64,000 bases of DNA from positions 2,170,001 to 2,234,000 of the forward strand of contig BFBT01000001.1 of the NCBI GenBank assembly GCA_003112755.1, written 5' to 3'. This document shows, piece by piece, positions 36,506 to 45,968 of the stretch. The stretch comes from Lawsonibacter asaccharolyticus (lineage in GTDB: Bacteria; Bacillota; Clostridia; Oscillospirales; Oscillospiraceae). Numbering within the stretch: position 1 is the stretch's first letter; the number at the start of each line of letters is the position of its first letter. The notes under the pieces were generated by a model that saw nothing but the letters and a program-made list of their open reading frames with translations, was not told the DNA's origin and did not search any database. The translations under genes and the position numbers were made by a program.

Positions 36506-37351
36506 ATGAGCGAACACAGACCAGCATTGGAACACATCCAGGCGTATGCGGACCATCTTCGGCTGGAAGAAAAAAGCGCCGCCACCGTAGAGAAATATCT
36601 GCGGGACGTCCGGGCCTTCGCCCGCTGGCTGGAGGGGCGGGAGATCACCAAGGAGCGGACGGCGGCGTGGAAGACCCATTTGGTGGAGCGGGGCTACGCC
36701 CCCGCCAGCGTCAATGCCATGCTCTCCGCCCTGAACAGTCTGCTGGACTTTCTGGGCTTCGGGGACTGCCGGGTGAAGTTTCTCAAGGTCCAGCGGCGAA
36801 TGTTCCGGGATGACAGCCGGGACCTGACCCGGTCCGACTACAACGCCCTCACCGCTGCGGCAAAGGCGCAGAACAAAACGCGGCTGGCTCTGTTGATGGA
36901 GGCCATCTGCGCCACCGGCATCCGGGTCAGCGAGGTGCAGTATATTACCGTGGAGGCGGCCAGAGCGGGCCGGGCGGAGGTCGCCCTGAAAGGCAAGATC
37001 CGCACCATCCTCATCCCCAGCAAGCTGTGCCGCAAGCTGCTGAAATACGCCAAACAGCAAAAAACCGCTTCCGGCGAGATCTTTCTCACCAGAAACGGGA
37101 CGCCCCTCAGCCGCCGTCAGATCTGGGCGGAGATGAAGGGGCTGTGCAAGACGGCGGGGGTCGCGGCCAGCGAGGTCTTTCCCCACAACCTTCGCCATCT
37201 GTTCGCCGCGGCCTTTTACCGGGCCAGCCGTGACATCGTGAAGCTGGCGGATGTGCTGGGCCATTCCAGCCTCGAGACCACACGCATCTACCTCCTGACC
37301 TCCGGGGCGGAACACCAGCGGCAGCTGGACCGACTGGGACTTGTATCGTAA
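36506..37351 (+). CDS. Tyrosine site-specific recombinase, candidate DNA invertase
   Basis: A 281-residue XerC/integrase-type protein. The N-terminal SAM-like domain (HIQAYADHLRLEEKSAATVEKY) is followed by a complete catalytic set: Arg140 in TGIRVSE, Lys in LKGKIR, His227 and Arg230 in FPHNLRHLF, His253 in LGHSS and Tyr262 in TRIYLL. AAGGAGGAG precedes the ATG. Its stop codon is 4 bp before the left arm of an inverted repeat pair, and no other element genes flank it. That placement suits a local invertase acting on 37356-37620 rather than a phage integrase. Direct proof is lacking. Confidence 0.85.
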   Translation: MSEHRPALEHIQAYADHLRLEEKSAATVEKYLRDVRAFARWLEGREITKERTAAWKTHLVERGYAPASVNAMLSALNSLLDFLGFGDCRVKFLKVQRRMFRDDSRDLTRSDYNALTAAAKAQNKTRLALLMEAICATGIRVSEVQYITVEAARAGRAEVALKGKIRTILIPSKLCRKLLKYAKQQKTASGEIFLTRNGTPLSRRQIWAEMKGLCKTAGVAASEVFPHNLRHLFAAAFYRASRDIVKLADVLGHSSLETTRIYLLTSGAEHQRQLDRLGLVS

Positions 37352-37419
37352 AGTCGAAATTCTCATTCTGTCTCATTTGCTGTAAATATAAAACTGCCAG
37401 AATTACATATTCCATGTAA

Positions 37420-37448
37420 ATATTACCACTTTCTTTTCAAAAGAGCAA
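37420..37448 (-). promoter_or_regulatory. Promoter inside the invertible segment, now pointing away from the surface-protein genes
   Basis: Minus strand TTGCTC (37448-37443), 17-bp spacer, TAATAT (37425-37420) with an extended -10 TGG. Inversion between the repeats would move it to about 37528-37556 on the plus strand, ~90 bp before the start at 37644. A small dyad TTACATATTCCATGTAA lies just downstream of its -10. Confidence 0.6.
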
Positions 37449-37480
37449 GAGCGGGACCTGCTTTTGAGCACAAAAATATG

Positions 37481-37508
37481 AGCCGCAAAATGGAATATTT
37501 TTGCGGCT
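37481..37508. terminator. Bidirectional hairpin terminator inside the invertible segment
   Basis: AGCCGCAAAA (37481-37490) and TTTTGCGGCT (37499-37508). It lies behind the promoter in either orientation and would block read-through from the recombinase gene in the present one. Confidence 0.6.
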
Positions 37509-37643
37509 TTCCTTGCTACGGCTTTTTACCTGTTTTTAGAACAGCAAAAGACGCCTTTCATTCGCTTTATCTCTCTTTGTATGGCCTATACAGCAAATGA
37601 TGGGACAGAATGAGAATTCTGAAAAGATTGGAGGCGATAAATA

Positions 37644-38072
37644 TTGCGAATGACTCTCTACGACTACTGCGCGGAGCGGGATGAGCTGGTCCTGCTGACC
37701 CAGTGGGCACCGGTCAAAAACAGGACGCTGACGCCAAGAGAGGGGTCCTATGGCAGGAGACAGAAGAACTGGCGTACTTACTGGCCCGAGAGGTGGCCGC
37801 CCAGTGGTGCGTCCCCCGACCTAACCCCGGAGCACGTGACAGCGGGAAGCCGCCGGATGGCTTGGCGGGAGTGTCCCAACGGTCATATCTGGAAGGCCGC
37901 CATTTATTCCAGGGCGGGGCCGCAGAAGTGCGGCTGTTCCCGTCTGCGCCGGGAAAGTCAGCCCAAAACGGCTGGAACGCTGTCGGCGGGCGCTGGAAGA
38001 ATGGGAATAAAATGGGGCCGGTCAGCTCTAATTCCCGGTCTGGAAAATCGTAACAGGAGGAACGAGAAATGA
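37644..38072 (+). CDS. Small zinc-ribbon-like protein, probably degenerate
   Basis: Starts TTG at 37644 (GGAGG at 9 bp) or ATG at 37650. The beginning TLYDYCAERDELVLLTQW and the later LTPEHVTAGSRRMAWRECPN followed by GHIWKAAIYSR resemble two halves of the repeated zinc-ribbon domain (C-P-x-G-H-x-W) found in many Clostridia; the linking part has changed frame, and the expected paired Cys of the first repeat are gone. Its TGA overlaps the ATG of the surface-protein gene by 4 bp, so it may act mainly as the leader cistron for it. Confidence 0.5.
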   Translation: MRMTLYDYCAERDELVLLTQWAPVKNRTLTPREGSYGRRQKNWRTYWPERWPPSGASPDLTPEHVTAGSRRMAWRECPNGHIWKAAIYSRAGPQKCGCSRLRRESQPKTAGTLSAGAGRMGIKWGRSALIPGLENRNRRNEK

Positions 38073-39543
38073 AAAAACGGATATTGTCAAGTTTCTTATC
38101 GCTGGTACTGGTATTATCGCTGATGCCTGTGAGCGCGCTGGCGGCGGAGGGACCGCAGAATGTGGCTCCTGCCGTGGTCACAGAGGAGCCTGGAGAGGTC
38201 CACGGTGAGCCTCCGGTGGAGGAGGCGGCCGGGCCGGAAGAGCCGGCCTGCATCTGCGAGTCCCTTTGTACCGGGGAGACCGTGAACACGGACTGCCCCA
38301 TCTGCACGGCGGACTATACCGCCTGCACCTATGAGGCTCCTGCTGATGAGCAGCAGGAGCCGGCGGGTGAACAGGGAGAACCTGTCGGCCCCACGGCGGA
38401 GGAACAGCTTACGGCGCTGATCGCGGCTCTGCCTGACCCAGCTGATATTGATCCGGAGGACGAGGAGCAGGTGGAGAGGATCAGCGACCAAATCTCCGAG
38501 ATCTACGCCTATGCCGAGGAACACGGCCTTGATGCGGAAAACGATGAAACCATCAATGCCGTGATTATGGCTCTCTACCCTGTGGAATTGCTGGAATATA
38601 CAGCTGAAGAGGGTACACAAGAAAATCCGTGGGATATTTCCGCTGAGGGCGAGGGAAACAATATCACTGCCTATCTGGAGAAAAACAACGGTGATGAGTC
38701 TACTCCCACCTATACGCTTGTCATCTCCGGAAGCGGTGCGATGGCGGATTTTCCTGACGCGGGTCAGGCTCCTTGGTATCTGTATTTTCCTGATAAAGGC
38801 GCTCAAACGGCGATTACTGAAATCACAATCGGAAAAGATGTGACCACCATTGGTGCCAATGCCTTTGTCTGGTGCAAAGCTGTCAAAAATGTGAACTTTG
38901 AAGCAGGAAGCGCATTGAAGGAAATCCACCTGAATGGCTTCCATTCACTGGTTCAATTAACATCCATTGAACTCCCTGCCTCGTTGGTGGAGATCGGGGG
39001 AGCCGCGTTTTATGGATGTACCGCACTTCAAACGGTTTCCTTTCAGGATCCGGAGAAGTTGACTATCATTGAAGACAGTGCATTTGGCTCTTGTAAAGCA
39101 CTGGAACACTTCAACTCGAACGTAGATGGAAAATGTGACATTCCTCAGAATGTTGTATCGATTGGTGGGATGGCTTTCCAATACTGCACCAGTCTAACAG
39201 ATGTAACGATCCCGGCAGGGGTGGAAACCTTGAGTGCAACATTTTATAGCTGTTCCAAGCTGACGTCTGTAACCTTTGCGCCTGGCTCCGTGGTAAAGCA
39301 CTTATCAGGCTCCAGTTCCAGCGATGTAGGTGTATTTACCGCAACAGCCTTAACCTCCATTGATCTGCCGGACAGCGTAGAAACGATAGGAAGAAGTTGC
39401 TTCCACAGATCAAAACTAACTGCGATTTCGATTCCTGCGCGGGTGCAAAGCATAGGAATCAATGCGTTTGCCGGGTGTCCTCTGACTTCGGTTACATTCG
39501 CAGAGAACTTTGAATTAAAAGAAATCGGCACAGGTGCATTGTA
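38069..39543 (+). pseudogene. SLH/BspA-type surface protein, N-terminal part interrupted by IS66
   Basis: Encodes a Sec signal peptide (LSLVLVLSLMPVSALAA), a short Cys-rich segment (CICESLCTGETVNTDCPIC), an acidic helical spacer, and BspA-type leucine-rich repeats of the LRR_5 kind from about residue 230 (IGANAFVWCKAVKNVNFEAG, IGGAAFYGCTALQTVSF). The reading frame stops at TAA (39542) 2 bp inside an IS66 element inserted at 39541. Removing the element and one copy of the 8-bp duplication restores an in-frame 1352-residue protein together with 43382-45968. ATGA overlap with the preceding ORF. Possible phase variation is discussed under the inverted repeats. Confidence 0.88.
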
Positions 39544-39567
39544 AGCGTCAAATATAATATGAGATAA

Positions 39568-39609
39568 AAAGAACGAGAGCAGCCAATACTTTGTCTGCTC
39601 TCATTCTTT
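39568..39609. terminator. Hairpin near the left end of the IS66 element
   Basis: AAAGAACGAGAGCAG pairs with CTGCTCTCATTCTTT; may stop transcripts of the element or from the host gene. Confidence 0.6.
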
Positions 39610-39644
39610 GCTTCTGGAAGCAATAAAAATTTTGAGACTACAAT

Positions 39645-39992
39645 TTAAGCAGGGCGCTCAAATTCGTCAGAGCAGACTGCATGGAAAAGTACAGCAAGAA
39701 ATTCAGCGGAACGCAAGCGCCTGTCAAGGTGTCTATGGGAAAGAGATTCCAACAAGGGGAGATTGTGCTTCCAGGCAATAGTAGATACAGTTCGAATATT
39801 TCGTTCCACCGCCTTCCAGTTCGTCCCATACTTCCTGGCGACATCGGGATACAGCCACTTTGTCACCAACAAAAGCCTGTCTTGCTGTTCCACGCACAAA
39901 GATACTGCATAAGCGGTATGGAGAAATCCTTTGTAATTAGCGGATATTCCAAGCTGGTATAATAGATCACAAATGGCTGAGGAGGCAACCAT
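39645..39992 (-). CDS. IS66 passenger: Spo0A C-terminal-domain-like protein
   Basis: A 115-residue protein whose whole length resembles the DNA-binding domain of the sporulation regulator Spo0A: ICDLLYQLGISANYKGFLHT, then LVTKWLYPDVARKYGTNWKAVERNIRTV. There is no receiver domain. It is the last gene of the element on the minus strand. It could regulate transposition or interfere with host Spo0A control; neither is shown. Confidence 0.7.
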   Translation of the reverse strand: MVASSAICDLLYQLGISANYKGFLHTAYAVSLCVEQQDRLLLVTKWLYPDVARKYGTNWKAVERNIRTVSTIAWKHNLPLLESLSHRHLDRRLRSAEFLAVLFHAVCSDEFERPA

Positions 39993-40046
39993 CGTATCAT
40001 CTCCTTATATGGTTTCTAAAGACTTTATTAAATATTTCAATCCCTT

Positions 40047-40733
40047 TTAAGTGGAGATTAGAACATCATCCTTGTCAAGAATATTGAGTGCTGATTTTTG
40101 CCCGGGGTAGATGATCTGGGCGTGCTTGTACCAACGCCAATCCAGGCGTTGTCCGCAATGGTCACAAAAGTTCTGGCCTTCACGTTCCAAAGTGGCCATA
40201 CACGCGGGACAGACAGGAAATGTGGTCAATCCGGCCGGGGATGTAAAAGCCATTGCTTGAGAAACCAGGAGCGGTTTGTTGCGCAGCAGCAACTTTGTAG
40301 TCGATTCAGGCGGAATATCAGACATTCCGAATATGTCAGGCGAGTCTCGGAAAAGAAAACCAGGGTCACGCTCAATGAATTCAAAAAACGGGATATCGGA
40401 TTGAATGTAGACAGCTAGATAGGTAATAAAAACGCTGGGATCTGGTTCCTGCTTCATAGAGCGTCCCAGATAAGAAAGAACCAAATCTTGTTCCACAAGT
40501 GCATCCCAGCAGCGATGCGCCAAGCGTATCACGCTCTTGTACACAGTTTCAGGCTTTTTATGAAGCAGTCTGGCAACATCGGGGTAAATATGTTTCGTTG
40601 CTTTAATATCGGACATGGAGATATGCTGTTCAAATAAGAGGTCATTGGTAATGTTTAGAGCAAGAACGAGTGGACGAATATTCGGACGAGTTGTACCAAA
40701 AATATTGCGCAGGAAAATTTCTGTGTTTGCCAT
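40047..40733 (-). CDS. IS66 passenger: Spo0A-C-like protein with zinc ribbon
   Basis: A 228-residue protein. The N-terminal ~110 residues again resemble Spo0A-C (DIKATKHIYPDVARLLHKKP, ETVYKSVIRLAHRCWDAL); near the C-terminus two Cys pairs (CPACMATL, CDHCGQRLDWRW) form a zinc ribbon. ATG at 40733 follows AAAGGTGG. With the neighbouring gene it forms a two-gene passenger module between tnpC and the left end. Role unknown. Confidence 0.65.
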   Translation of the reverse strand: MANTEIFLRNIFGTTRPNIRPLVLALNITNDLLFEQHISMSDIKATKHIYPDVARLLHKKPETVYKSVIRLAHRCWDALVEQDLVLSYLGRSMKQEPDPSVFITYLAVYIQSDIPFFEFIERDPGFLFRDSPDIFGMSDIPPESTTKLLLRNKPLLVSQAMAFTSPAGLTTFPVCPACMATLEREGQNFCDHCGQRLDWRWYKHAQIIYPGQKSALNILDKDDVLIST

Positions 40734-40909
40734 AAAAGAACCACCTTTCATAAGATAGTTCCATAATATGACAAGATCAGACAGATAGACGACATGGGAT
40801 AAAACAGGACAAAACTTCCTTGTTTTTCCACACCGCGGTGCCAATAATCCCTATTGGAAAAAGCAAAAGCGGGCTTACCAATGGCAATCCCGCTTTCACA
40901 AGATATATT

Positions 40910-42499
40910 CTATTTCTTTGTAATACAACATTCTGGGGGAATATTTTCCGGGAGCAGCTTTGCGGCCCAGTTCTTGTCGGTAACTGCCAGTCCGGGTGCC
41001 TTGGAAAACACATGAACCAAATATCGGTATGGATCAAGGTTATTCTCCCTGGCCGTTTCAATCAGACTGTAAACAATGGCGCTGCTCTGAGCACCGCCCT
41101 CCGTATTGGCGAACAGCCAGTTCTTCCGCCCCATCACAAAGGGTTTAATGCTCCGCTCCGCCCGGTTGTTGCTTATTTCCAGACGCCCGTCCTCTAAAAA
41201 GCGTTTCAGATATGGCCACTGCTCCCGCAGATAGTACAGCGCCTTTCCCAAAGAGGACTTGGGCGGGGCGGTCTTCGTTTCCGCCCATGCCAACAAAGCG
41301 TCCATCACCGGCTTGGACCGAGCCAGACGCTGGATATAACGTTCTTCCGGCGGCAGATCCGCTAGTTCCTTTTCAATGGCGAAAAGAATATTACAGTATT
41401 GCAGTCCCTCCAACGCCGTGCAGCCAACCTGCTGCTCTTTTGGCAAGGCGTTCACCGCCTCGTCAAACTTTCGCCGCAGATGCGCCCAGCAGCCAACCAC
41501 CCGGATGTTCTCCGGCAATCGGTGGTAGCCGGAATACCCATCCGCATGGAGCCAGCCCGTAAAGCCCTTGAGGAATGCTTCGGCATTCTCCGCCTTCCGG
41601 TTCTGCTGGTACTCATACAGAACTATGGGATGCTCGGCGTCTCCGCCAGTCCGGTACAGCCACATATAGCACTTGCTCCTGGCTGTCTGCCCTTCCAACT
41701 TCAGCACCTGCAAGGTTGTTTCATCCGCATGGAGAACCTCGCGCTGAAGCAACTGCCGGTGCAAGTGGTCATAGATGGGCCGCAGCCAGTCCTCCGCCAC
41801 CCGCAGCACCCAGTTGCTCATCGTCTGCCGGGAGAGCATCACCCCAGCACGATTCCATTCCTGTTCCTGCCGGTACAGCGGAGCGTACATCACAAACTTC
41901 TGCACCATGATATGGGCCACAGCCTCCGGGGAGGCATAGCTGCCCGAAATCAGGGGAGGCTCTTTGGGGGCTTTCAGGATAGGTGTTTCCGTCCCTGTCT
42001 GCTTGCAGTTCTGGCAGGCGTATGTAAAATAAACATCTTCCCGGATCTTCACCTGGGCAGGGACCATTACCAGAGTACGGCGCACCTCGGTCCCAATCTC
42101 TGTCATGAGCGTACCGCATTCAGGACAGTTACGTTCAGACTCCGGGACGCGGTGCTCCACCACCTCAACAGGGATGTTCTCAGGCAGAACCTCCTCCACA
42201 CGGGAGGATCGCTTCTGCCGGGTATGAGCGGCAACCCTGGTTTCCCTCGTGGCAGTCCTCCTGGTAGACAGCCATGCTTCCGTCTCATCAAACATGAAAC
42301 TCAGCTGGCCAACCAACTCCTCCTTCGTCTGCTCGGAGGATGTCCCATAGACCTTCTTTTTGGCAAGACGCACCTGTTCCATCAGCCAGTCCAGCTTCTG
42401 GTTCAGTTCGTCTCGTTCCGCCTTTAGAGACTCATATTCCGCACGGGAAATGGTCATCATTTCTGTGCTGCTTGTGGTAATGTTCACTTCGTTTTTCAT
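40910..42499 (-). CDS. tnpC: IS66 transposase (TnpC)
   Basis: A 529-residue DDE transposase. A coiled-coil start (YESLKAERDELNQKLDWLME), a zinc finger (CPECGTLM ... CQNCKQTG), the catalytic region VLHADETTLQVL, HADGYSGYHRL and the terminal Glu in ISNNRAERSIKPFVMGRKNW are all present. The ATG at 42499 (MKNEVNITT) is preferred to the upstream open frame. It needs TnpA and TnpB, encoded just upstream. Confidence 0.93.
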   Translation of the reverse strand: MKNEVNITTSSTEMMTISRAEYESLKAERDELNQKLDWLMEQVRLAKKKVYGTSSEQTKEELVGQLSFMFDETEAWLSTRRTATRETRVAAHTRQKRSSRVEEVLPENIPVEVVEHRVPESERNCPECGTLMTEIGTEVRRTLVMVPAQVKIREDVYFTYACQNCKQTGTETPILKAPKEPPLISGSYASPEAVAHIMVQKFVMYAPLYRQEQEWNRAGVMLSRQTMSNWVLRVAEDWLRPIYDHLHRQLLQREVLHADETTLQVLKLEGQTARSKCYMWLYRTGGDAEHPIVLYEYQQNRKAENAEAFLKGFTGWLHADGYSGYHRLPENIRVVGCWAHLRRKFDEAVNALPKEQQVGCTALEGLQYCNILFAIEKELADLPPEERYIQRLARSKPVMDALLAWAETKTAPPKSSLGKALYYLREQWPYLKRFLEDGRLEISNNRAERSIKPFVMGRKNWLFANTEGGAQSSAIVYSLIETARENNLDPYRYLVHVFSKAPGLAVTDKNWAAKLLPENIPPECCITKK

Positions 42500-42578
42500 A
42501 TCTTTATTATAACATAAAAACCCTTGAAATACCAGTTCTTTCAATGGTTTGCGAGAAAATAGCATCCAATTTTCAATG

Positions 42579-42935
42579 CTATACCATACTCAGGCCAGTC
42601 ACTGCTTTGTGCGCTTTGGGCTGTTCGATCTTCAGCCCTTCCATCAGCCAGCGGTACTGCTGCGGCGTCAGCATCTTCACCTCAACTTCGGACCTCGGCC
42701 ACTGGTACGCTCCCTGCTCCAGCCTCTTGTAGAGGAGGATGAAGCCATCCCGTTCCCAGTACAGCCCTTTTATTCGGTCCCGCTTTCGCCCGCAGAACAG
42801 AAACAGTGTGTTGGTGAATGGGTCCAGTTCAAACTGCTGCTGTACCATCGTGGCCAAACCATCGATCCCTTTGCGCAGATCTGTATATCCACAGGCGATG
42901 TAGACCTTGTCTGCTCCGGTAAAATCGTTCAGCAT
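42579..42935 (-). CDS. tnpB: IS66 accessory protein TnpB
   Basis: A 118-residue protein with YIACGYTDLRKGIDGLA, LFLFCGRKRDRIKGLYWERDG and the C-terminal LTPQQYRWLMEGL, the standard IS66 Orf2 signature. It overlaps tnpA by 7 bp, implying coupled translation. Confidence 0.95.
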   Translation of the reverse strand: MLNDFTGADKVYIACGYTDLRKGIDGLATMVQQQFELDPFTNTLFLFCGRKRDRIKGLYWERDGFILLYKRLEQGAYQWPRSEVEVKMLTPQQYRWLMEGLKIEQPKAHKAVTGLSMV

Positions 42936-43273
42936 TGTCTCAGCAGCTCCACCAGAGTCCGCAGCAATTCCGGCCCCATTTCCTGATACAGATCAATGCT
43001 GCTACTCCCGATGTTGAGTGTAGCGGTACGTTCCGAATTATTTCGCAATGGTTGCGGTGCTGGCAGTTCTACAAATGTGCCCCCAGAACGTCCCTCGGCG
43101 TCTTTCCTACCTATACCGGACAGAACCTCTCTTTCCCATCGGTAATATGTTGTTGGCGTGATGCCCCGCTGGCGGCACCACTCCCGCACTGACAGCCCGC
43201 TGCTCCGGCAGTCCTGTATTGCCAATCCCCATTTCTGAACCTTTGCCTGGTGCTTCAGTTCATTGCTCGTCAT
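42929..43273 (-). CDS. tnpA: IS66 accessory protein TnpA
   Basis: A 114-residue HTH protein (QDCRSSGLSVREWCRQRGIT, PTTYYRWEREVL), typical of IS66 Orf1. First gene of the element's main operon, starting 100 bp from the right terminal repeat. Confidence 0.92.
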   Translation of the reverse strand: MTSNELKHQAKVQKWGLAIQDCRSSGLSVREWCRQRGITPTTYYRWEREVLSGIGRKDAEGRSGGTFVELPAPQPLRNNSERTATLNIGSSSIDLYQEMGPELLRTLVELLRQC

Positions 43274-43373
43274 CCGGATACACCGCCTAATAGTTAATAG
43301 TGCCGGAACGTCTCAAAACGTTCCACCACTATTCTCTCATGTCTGTCTACCCGTCACTTTACTTGACGCTTAC

Positions 43374-45968
43374 GGTGCATTTGCCGGTGCAACGGTTAAC
43401 GAGTTCATTATTCCTGAAGGTGTAGAGTCGATAGGTGATAGCATTCTCCATAACGGAAAAGTCACCAGCCTAATTCGGGTTCCCAGCACACTGACAGCAG
43501 GGTTTTCACTTGGCTGGGTATCTACAAGTGATAACTGCATATTAGATACAAGTCGAACAGTCCATCAGATCAAACCTTATGGAACCACTCGATATAAGCT
43601 TATTTATATTCCCGCTGAGAATCAGAAGTCCAATTACACCAGTCAAAATACCTTTGCTGTTACTAACGGTGGCATAGCCATTGGTAACAGCGAAGGTAAC
43701 ACGCTGATGGATGTGGAACGCAATGGCTATATCTTCGACGGCTGGTATCAAGATGCCAACTTCCAGACACCGGCGAACAAGAATGAGGCTGGTGACTATA
43801 TCTATCAAAATAGCAAGACCTACTACGCCAAGTGGGTCTACAATATCACTTTTGATGCCAACGGCGGCGAGGGCACCATGGAAGCTCAGGCGGTCACCGA
43901 AGGCGATCAGACCACGAAATTGATGAACAGTACTTTTACCAGAGCCGACTACACCTGTGCCGGATGGAATACAAAACCGGATGGTACGGGGACAGCCTAT
44001 GCGGCAGATGCGGTGGCCTCCACCGTCCCCAACGGAACCACCCTGTACGCCCAGTGGACCAAAAAAATTGGTGAGTCCACTCCATACACCGTGAACGCTA
44101 TCCAGGGTCATGTCTACACTGGCAAGGAGATCAAGCCCACTGTTATCATTAAGAGTGGTGAAACGGTTTTGAACAGTGGATATACCGTTTCTTACTCCAA
44201 TAACATCGATGTCGGTGAGGCAAAGGTCACCGTTACGATCGGAAACGATTCCGCCGAGGTCACATTCCAGATCACCAGGGACAACGCCCCCACTGTTGCA
44301 ATGTCCGATGTATCTGTGACCTATGGCACTGCATATGCGATGACTGCTGCGGCCAAGACCAGCGCGGGCAATGCGATTACAGATGGTACCATCACCATCC
44401 GGTATTATACCAATGAAGATTGTTCCAAGGATGAGTCTGAAACCGCTCCCACTGCCGCGGGCATCTACTATGCCAAGGCGACTCTGGCCGAAACGGACAA
44501 CTATGGCAGTGCAAGCGCATCTGCAAAGATCACCATCCGCAACGCCGACTTCTCTGTCACCGCTCAGGGCTACGACGGCACTTATGACGGCCAGCCGCAC
44601 TCCATCACTGTAACGGCAGAGGGCGCGGCTGTGACTTACTCCACCACGGAGAACGGCACGTACAGCGAGACGAATCCCACCTTTACCGACGCAGGAGAAT
44701 ATACCGTCTATTACAGGGCTGCCAAGGCCAACCACAACGATGTGACCGGCAATGTGACTGTGAAGATCGCCAAGGCTGTCCCCGCCATCACCATTTCTTC
44801 CGACAAAGCCGAGCTTCGCGGCGGCGGTACTGTGGAACTGACAGTCAAGGCCGCCCCCGCGGACAGCACTGTGGCCGTCACCCAGACTGATGACCAAGGC
44901 AGCGAGGCCAAGATTTTGACTCTGACGGATGGGACCGTATCTGTCAAGCTGGACAACAGGGATGCCAGGTACACCTTTACCGCATCCTGTGCTGAAACGA
45001 ACAATTACACCGCAGGGAGCAGCGAATGCACCGTGACCGTCTCCCGCCGCTCCTCCGGCGGTGGCGGCGGCTCCAGCAGCACTACCGCGGAGACCACCAC
45101 CAACAGGGACGGCTCCAAAACCACCACTGTCACAGACAAGAAAACCGGCACCGTCACTGAGACCACCAAGTTCCAGGACGGCTCCATCCTAGTGGTGGAG
45201 ACCCAGAAGGACGGCACTGTGACCACCACCGAGACAACCAAAAACGGTGTCAAGATCAAGACCGTGGATGAGCCGGGCGAGGATGTGACTGCTGAGATCA
45301 CCGTCCCAAAGTCCGTGGGCGAGGCCGTTGTGATCATCCCTGCCGACGTGGACTGCGGCACTGTGGCCGTGGACACGGACACCGGCGAGGTGGTGAAGCT
45401 GTCCGTCCCCACTAAGGAGGGGATGACCGTCAAGCTGGCCGGCTCCGCTGAACTGGTGCTGGTGGACCGCAGCAGGAATTTTGATGACACTCGGAACCAC
45501 TGGGCGAAGGACGCCATCAACTTCGTCACAGCCCATGAGCTGTTCTCTGGTACCAGTGACACCGCCTTCACCCCTGACAGCCCCATGACCCGTGCCATGC
45601 TGATGACTGTTCTGGCCCGCTTTGACGGACAGGACACCACCGGCGGGGCTGTGTGGTATGAAAAGGCCATGGAATGGGCCAGGGAGAACGGCATCTCTGA
45701 CGGCTCTGATCCCGACGGTTCCATCACCCGGGAGCAGCTTGCCACCATGCTGTGGCGCTATGCGGGCAGTCCCACTGGGGGCGGCTCCCTGTCCTCCTTC
45801 GGGGACAGCGCCAGCGTCAGCGCCTACGCCCTGGAGGCTGTGCGCTGGGCCGTGGGCGAGGGCCTGATCTCCGGTACAGATGCCGGCCTGCTGGCCCCTC
45901 AGGGCAGCGCAACCCGGGCGCAGGTGGCCACCATCCTCATGCGCTTTGTGGAGAGCCTGACCAAGTAA
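43374..45968 (+). pseudogene. SLH/BspA-type surface protein, C-terminal part after IS66
   Basis: Continues in frame from the first part after the duplicated GGTGCATT. It holds one more leucine-rich repeat (FIIPEGVESIGDSILHNGK), two InlB/Listeria-Bacteroides-type repeats (GYIFDGWYQDANF, FDANGGEGTMEAQAV with CAGWNTKPDGTGTAY), several MBG-like beta repeats, a Thr/Lys-rich stalk, and three S-layer homology domains (NHWAKDAINFVTAHELFSGT, WYEKAMEWARENGISDGS, YALEAVRWAVGEGLISGT) that anchor to cell-wall polymers. Without the first part it lacks a signal peptide. Open frame extends to 43263 inside the element but has no ribosome site. Confidence 0.88.

Follow-up and report, generated by a model that had tools for sequence, protein, structure and literature searches.

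Tyrosine recombinases invert the promoter element of a surface gene in the fim-type switches of E. coli, and in C. difficile RecV acts on several sites, with some switches of that species acting after transcription start. Other described systems share this general plan. The UpaE element of E. coli, which bears the promoter of a surface gene, is inverted by a tyrosine recombinase (PMC6083910). In C. difficile, site-specific recombination turns round short segments upstream of surface, flagellar and c-di-GMP genes (PMC5903667, PMC7446863), and a 'master recombinase' acts on sites located at other places of the genome (PMC5903667). Inverton group 139 comprises, in the available part of the account, 33 invertons, 32 of them in Clostridia, and is tied to tyrosine recombinase invertase group 35; the same account describes an inverton of Intestinimonas butyriciproducens DSM-26588 with 14-bp arms 227 bp apart, whose orientation changes in culture (PMC11892184).

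The stretch of DNA analysed here, 64,000 nucleotides from Lawsonibacter asaccharolyticus (from this point on, the window), carries between a tyrosine recombinase gene and a surface-protein operon what is very probably a self-contained promoter-inversion switch. Its features are collected in Table 1.

Table 1. Features of the proposed switch and its target operon, in window positions
Feature	Position	Strand	Basis or remark
Tyrosine recombinase A, proposed local invertase	36506..37351	+	281 aa, one open frame
Left crossover site, GTCGAAA-TTCTCA-TTCTGTC (half-site, 6-bp core, half-site)	37353..37372	+	1 bp past recombinase stop codon
Left inverted-repeat arm	37358..37384	+	sequence
Unique interior of proposed invertible segment	37385..37588	.	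sequence
Predicted promoter, -35 TTGCTC (37443-37448), 17 nt, extended -10 TAATAT (37420-37425)	37420..37448	-	sequence; family position
Terminator-like hairpin behind promoter	37481..37508	-	scan
Right inverted-repeat arm	37589..37618	-	sequence
Right crossover site, minus-strand TTCAGAA-TTCTCA-TTCTGTC, same 6-bp core	37604..37623	-	sequence
Ribosome-site-like GGAGG of downstream operon	37630..37634	+	sequence
First gene of proposed ON transcript, 142-aa DUF4379 treble-clef protein, TTG start	37644..38072	+	profile match
5' part of secreted-looking LRR_5 (BspA-type) surface protein, signal-like start	38069..39544	+	cut by IS66 element
IS66-family element, 8-bp target duplication GGTGCATT, interrupts surface gene	39541..43373	-	sequence
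3' remainder of surface gene, List_Bact repeats and SLH domains	43374..45968	+	profile match

An earlier note on this DNA had called the recombinase intact, and the single frame bears this out; the profile search gives a Phage_integrase match (9e-26) and a SAM-like N-domain, and the catalytic-domain model PF00589 scores 91.1 bits, well above its cut-off of 27.1. The catalytic set R140, K164, H227, R230, H253 and Y262 is complete. Among 151 full-length homologs (134 different proteins, picked by coverage to residue 275 and not by catalytic residues), five of the six positions, with K164, H227 and Y262 among them, are kept in all 151 and H253 in 150. The AlphaFold model of recombinase A (pLDDT 83.5, pTM 0.60) includes the beta hairpin with K164. 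Scores against the Xer equivalog models fall below the cut-offs (XerA 141 of 220 bits, XerD 118 of 330, XerC 116 of 335), as do those against the NCBIfam 'tyrosine-type DNA invertase' models PRK09870 (35.4 of 221 bits) and PRK09871 (25.7 of 222), which we take to be models of FimB/FimE-type invertases. Judged by these scores, the protein is Xer-like with an N-terminal SAM-like domain, and is not Xer.

Inverted-repeat arms follow the recombinase gene, as had been claimed. Both carry TACAGCAAATGA and GACAGAATGAGAATT, the only departure from a perfect match being 3 nt inserted in the right arm. When positions 37341-37660 were shuffled 2000 times by mononucleotide, no shuffle gave an exact 14-mer inverted repeat more than 100 bp apart, whereas the real stretch holds two that overlap. 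Elsewhere in the genome, an exact copy of the 14-mer core occurs once, at C1:1832008, and the matches listed include no partner close to it. Inverted crossover sites stand on either side of a sequence-predicted promoter, which is the arrangement expected of a promoter inverton. The repeats could also be read as the ends of a mobile element, but this was rejected, since the recombinase lies outside them.

The minus-strand promoter is present where the earlier note had placed it, with TG preceding the -10 box, and faces the recombinase. Taken alone, it appears weak. The general promoter scan did not list it and gave instead a minus-strand site at 37386-37359 that overlaps the left arm, and with a matrix score of 8.9, where the best opposite-strand site reaches 7.5, it counts as ambiguous by the rule used. 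Of the 'bidirectional terminator' proposed between the arms, the hairpin exists, but the T-run test was passed by the minus-strand reading only. The distance of about 90 bp from the flipped promoter to the operon was close to the computed one, which is 87 bp from the end of the -10 box to the TTG codon.

In the proposed mechanism, recombinase A would bind the half-sites of both crossover sites and pair them, and strand exchange within the shared 6-bp core TTCTCA would turn round a segment of about 250 bp. As assembled, with the promoter directed at the recombinase gene and the hairpin separating that gene from the operon, the operon would be OFF. Once flipped, the promoter would switch ON the operon of the treble-clef and LRR/SLH surface proteins, and the hairpin would lie behind the promoter, shielding it from read-through. 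In this strain, where the IS66 element interrupts the surface gene, the ON state would yield at best a product that ends ahead of the SLH domains; the earlier note makes no mention of this element. We infer that this copy flips and that recombinase A is the enzyme at work on these sites, and likewise that the promoter is active and the present state OFF.

It is nevertheless conceivable, although unlikely, that the family is functional and this copy a decaying relic, locked OFF before a broken operon. The IS66 insertion with its target duplication fits such decay, as do the weak promoter and a first gene that appears shortened: its relatives in L058 and L133 measure 307 and 378 aa, and it has one DUF4379 match where L133 has five. 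Against decay stand the recombinase frame, its catalytic residues and both crossover cores, all of them intact, and a 98% identical protein, P0122, which represents 449 public sequences (proteins only). The switch machinery thus looks intact and the operon damaged, and with a broken target gene, selection on the switch may be weak. The IS66 element also carries two extra genes with a Spo0A C-terminal DNA-binding domain, at 39645-39992 (E 1e-24) and 40047-40844 (E 1e-5, barely above the cut-off), which is to our knowledge unusual cargo for an element of this family.

The reading as a self-contained switch is supported by related loci. Three close paralogues of the recombinase, with 64, 64 and 47% identity, occur in the same genome, and all three have inverted repeats at the 3' end of the gene. 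We gathered 112 loci in total: four from this genome, 29 from the same genus and 79 named loci, the latter being the best 79 of 577 confirmed matches. The named loci are labelled mostly as Oscillospiraceae, Lachnospiraceae or close to them; outlying labels, such as Mailhella (L112) and Christensenellaceae (L144), may be binning errors. The repeat test required at least 380 bp downstream, for which 15 of the 112 loci were too short, and used one mononucleotide shuffle per locus. Strong repeats (score at least 13; shuffle maximum 11) were found at the 3' end in 81 of the remaining 97 loci, which represent 75 distinct segments, some loci coming from two collections. In 79 of these 81 loci, the start of the repeats falls no further than 15 bp upstream or 20 bp downstream of the recombinase gene end, and in 69 the arms are 195-270 bp apart (full range 174-410). 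The other 16 homologs fall below the threshold by this ungapped method. One of them is the recombinase of the flagellar locus of this genome (L019), whose arm lies inside the gene end and beyond the search range; direct search finds perfect 21-bp repeats there. The layout of recombinase, repeat, promoter and repeat is conserved in the family. Viral contigs, when scanned with the recombinase family, yielded 10 loci, and the right arm of the window had no match in viral contigs.

Within the arms, the best common site consists of two 7-bp half-sites around a 6-bp core, GACARAA, six free bases and TTYTGTC. The core is the same in both arms at 81 of 81 loci, while the 14 half-site positions show 157 between-arm mismatches; the arms had been picked by ungapped similarity, which favours agreement overall and not agreement of the core above its neighbours. 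Between loci the core varies, with 50 different cores among the 81. An identical overlap flanked by recognisable half-sites is what strand exchange requires.

A segment that is invertible, but flipped in trans by another tyrosine recombinase of the genome, is distinctly improbable. The genome has 41 PF00589 matches (fragments and repeats included), the three close paralogues among them, and the likeness of half-sites across the family would favour such action; the repeats, however, adjoin the end of their own recombinase gene at nearly every strong locus. The cores also differ within genomes: none is shared in 20 within-genome pairs, from 11 genomes with at least two usable loci, but only 4 of 445 between-genome pairs share one. 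Differing cores were therefore rejected as proof of separate addressing, since sharing is almost as rare between genomes as within them. For this count, 20 paralogue stretches were fetched and seven dropped, five with a short downstream region or no stop codon and two (L202 and L211) below the score limit; L211, a duplicate left out of the within-genome count, has the same core as L212.

The earlier note had advised looking for the opposite orientation in related genomes, and homologous segments do occur both ways round, once at single-base resolution. This case is G007, a genome of the same genus in a single contig, in which two near-identical cassettes lie 792 kb apart on opposite strands. 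Their flanks are 99.7% identical over 968 bp on the left and 98.6% over 4439 bp on the right, but their 224-nt insides are exact reverse complements, while the outer 13 bp on each side are unmoved. The two arms have different half-sites, which allows the exchange to be mapped to AAAATAAAAATTT, core included. The duplicate could in principle be an assembly effect; even so, the exact inversion must exist in the sample. Of the two cassettes, L221 and L222 (C1, at about 537 and 1329 kb), the promoter by eye faces downstream only in L222.

In other relatives, a 467-bp block is inverted between L110 and L113 at 88% identity with collinear flanks of 84% and 86%, and L114 and its relatives are inverted with respect to L195 (83% over 225 bp for L114/L195). 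Three further groups, L108 against L118, L058 and L059 against L060, and L066 against L086, speak only for related segments lying both ways round, and not for a recent flip of one locus, since these loci have diverged and some cores are different. In the comparison that gave these three groups, 19 of 69 matching pairs are inverted; the pairs overlap in membership and include duplicate loci, and we count six independent inverted groups. Contig ends provide an indirect indication: they fall within 80 bp after the recombinase stop codon in 8 of the 79 named loci and within 80 bp before the start in none, and mixed orientations in a sequenced population would produce such breaks. With real inversions in relatives, with arms about 200 bp apart and with constant half-sites, for which a structure would have no need, around a locus-variable core matched between arms, the view that these repeats are an ordinary terminator or RNA structure that undergoes no recombination is hardly credible, even though a hairpin is present between the arms.

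The segment of the window has a single match in its own assembly, in one orientation, with no flipped or second copy there, and no match in 63 other genomes of the genus. Compared with the other segments, its longest match is 62 bp, partly hairpin, and the best match is L195, which is inverted. The assembly may hold repeated or variant stretches, as several integrase matches on contigs C3 and C5 are identical in score and frame to those on C1.

Promoter position and orientation were compared across the family with a matrix of general consensus frequencies. In 76 of the 103 distinct segments, the end of the -10 box is 35-60 bp away from its arm, as it is in 12 when each segment is shuffled once. 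Of the strongest hairpins in these segments, 83 are behind the promoter and 17 after it, and three overlap it. The matrix called 59 of 81 segments OFF, 15 ON and 7 ambiguous, the window being one of the ambiguous and its two 64% paralogues being OFF. Calls were opposite in 20 of 23 inverted pairs, while 54 of 59 same-orientation pairs were OFF/OFF and none opposite; these pairs are matches at E<=1e-8 with near-identical pairs removed, and overlapping pairs and duplicate loci are included. One apparent exception, L131 and L198, an inverted pair with equal calls, can be explained: the two are identical copies, and the inverted match is a hairpin self-match that was left after the filter had removed the same-orientation match. 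In the window, 43 bp separate the promoter from its arm, as is usual for the family, and the hairpin is behind the promoter, which makes the assembled state most likely OFF. An OFF state, an invertible promoter and a local invertase, all of which had been inferred in the earlier note, are thus supported by the family layout, the identity of the cores and the two orientations in relatives.

The 47% paralogue of the same genome (L055, C1:299000-314000) stands, by eye, before a flagellar operon from flgB onward. Its 21-bp repeats are 261 bp apart, the best promoter points toward flgB (11.7 against 7.6), and a third partial repeat begins 42 bp beyond the point where the right arm starts. This is probably a local flagellar switch, to judge from its layout, and ON as assembled.

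The first gene of the ON transcript often encodes a putative nucleic-acid-binding protein. DUF4379 proteins follow the switch in nine loci, including the window, and AP2-like proteins in 12, one of them a weak-repeat locus; when two of the AP2-like proteins were tested, one gave a match to AP2 under the cut-off and the other no match. A third class, B, is a second recombinase-like gene within 6 kb downstream in 27 of 98 loci, 18 with strong and nine with weak repeats, and in 26 of them it lies no more than 430 bp from the stop codon. It is mostly the first gene of the operon under the switch, and the genome of the window has a copy on the minus strand at L053:8239-9063. The three classes never occur together in the 98 loci, duplicate loci being counted in all of these figures. 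Other first genes encode response regulator-GGDEF proteins (five loci) or are of glycosylation type. The former stand directly after the switch in five genomes of the same genus (L078-L082; Pfam on one), which suggests phase-variable c-di-GMP signalling.

None of 25 B proteins compared has K164, H227, H253 or Y262, while 7 keep R140 and 10 keep R230; two partial proteins were dropped from this comparison and two fused ones retained, and the sequences align only loosely at these places. A tree was built from 78 A proteins (every second of the 151, plus those of this genome), 23 of the 27 B proteins and one Xer, and in it B forms a single long branch with 100/100 support. The AlphaFold model of B (pLDDT 91.5, pTM 0.68) has the two-domain recombinase shape but lacks the hairpin of the catalytic lysine, and one long helix takes the place of the tyrosine segment. 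Foldseek matches it best to Xer, Tn1549 and lambda integrases (TM-scores 0.37-0.59). These features mark B as a catalytically dead paralogue of the invertase. A protein search with B at E<=0.001 returned 1604 relatives; the 120 listed bear no functional name, and distant relatives may be of A type. A B-like gene with one internal TGA counted also occurs in the genome of the window (L056, C1:263831-264631), with no A recombinase near it among the search matches. Two proteins, P0006 and P0011, are apparent reciprocal A/B chimeras joined near a shared motif, and are perhaps assembly artefacts or products of recombination.

We offer as a tentative suggestion that the place after the promoter is a slot for a switch regulator made only in the ON state, and that B may bind the same half-sites and hold or bias the switch ON, which would make it a feedback factor evolved from the invertase. 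UpxY antiterminators are enriched among the genes that inverton promoters could drive in Bacteroidota (PMC11892184), so it is equally possible that slot proteins regulate the operon itself and not the switch. A limited exact-term search, taking in few subscription journals and no bioRxiv preprints, found no description of a dead recombinase in such switches. That such a protein is encoded in the ON transcript suggests that some of these switches may have a memory or feedback of their own. More generally, little-studied gut Clostridia become testable for phase variation from sequence alone: switches can be read in the order recombinase stop codon, half-site, 6-bp core, promoter and second site, and genomes can be read for the number of switches and their ON or OFF state.

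Among described systems, the fim-type switches and UpaE resemble the window in combining a tyrosine recombinase, a promoter-bearing element and a surface gene, but the window recombinase is Xer-like and far below the cut-offs of both 'tyrosine-type DNA invertase' models. The RecV system of C. difficile shares the inversion of short segments upstream of surface genes; there, as far as the available accounts go, one recombinase serves distant sites, whereas nearly every segment of the present family has its own adjacent recombinase. The available part of the group 139 account mentions no dead recombinase and no constant half-sites around a variable core, and the probable identity of that group with the present family is drawn from geometry and taxonomy. 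In both, a tyrosine-type recombinase lies near short invertons, with arms 195-270 bp apart in 69 of our 81 loci, and L133, from I. butyriciproducens An565, has 20-bp arms 262 bp apart. On this comparison, the window very likely carries a member of the group 139 kind rather than of a new kind.
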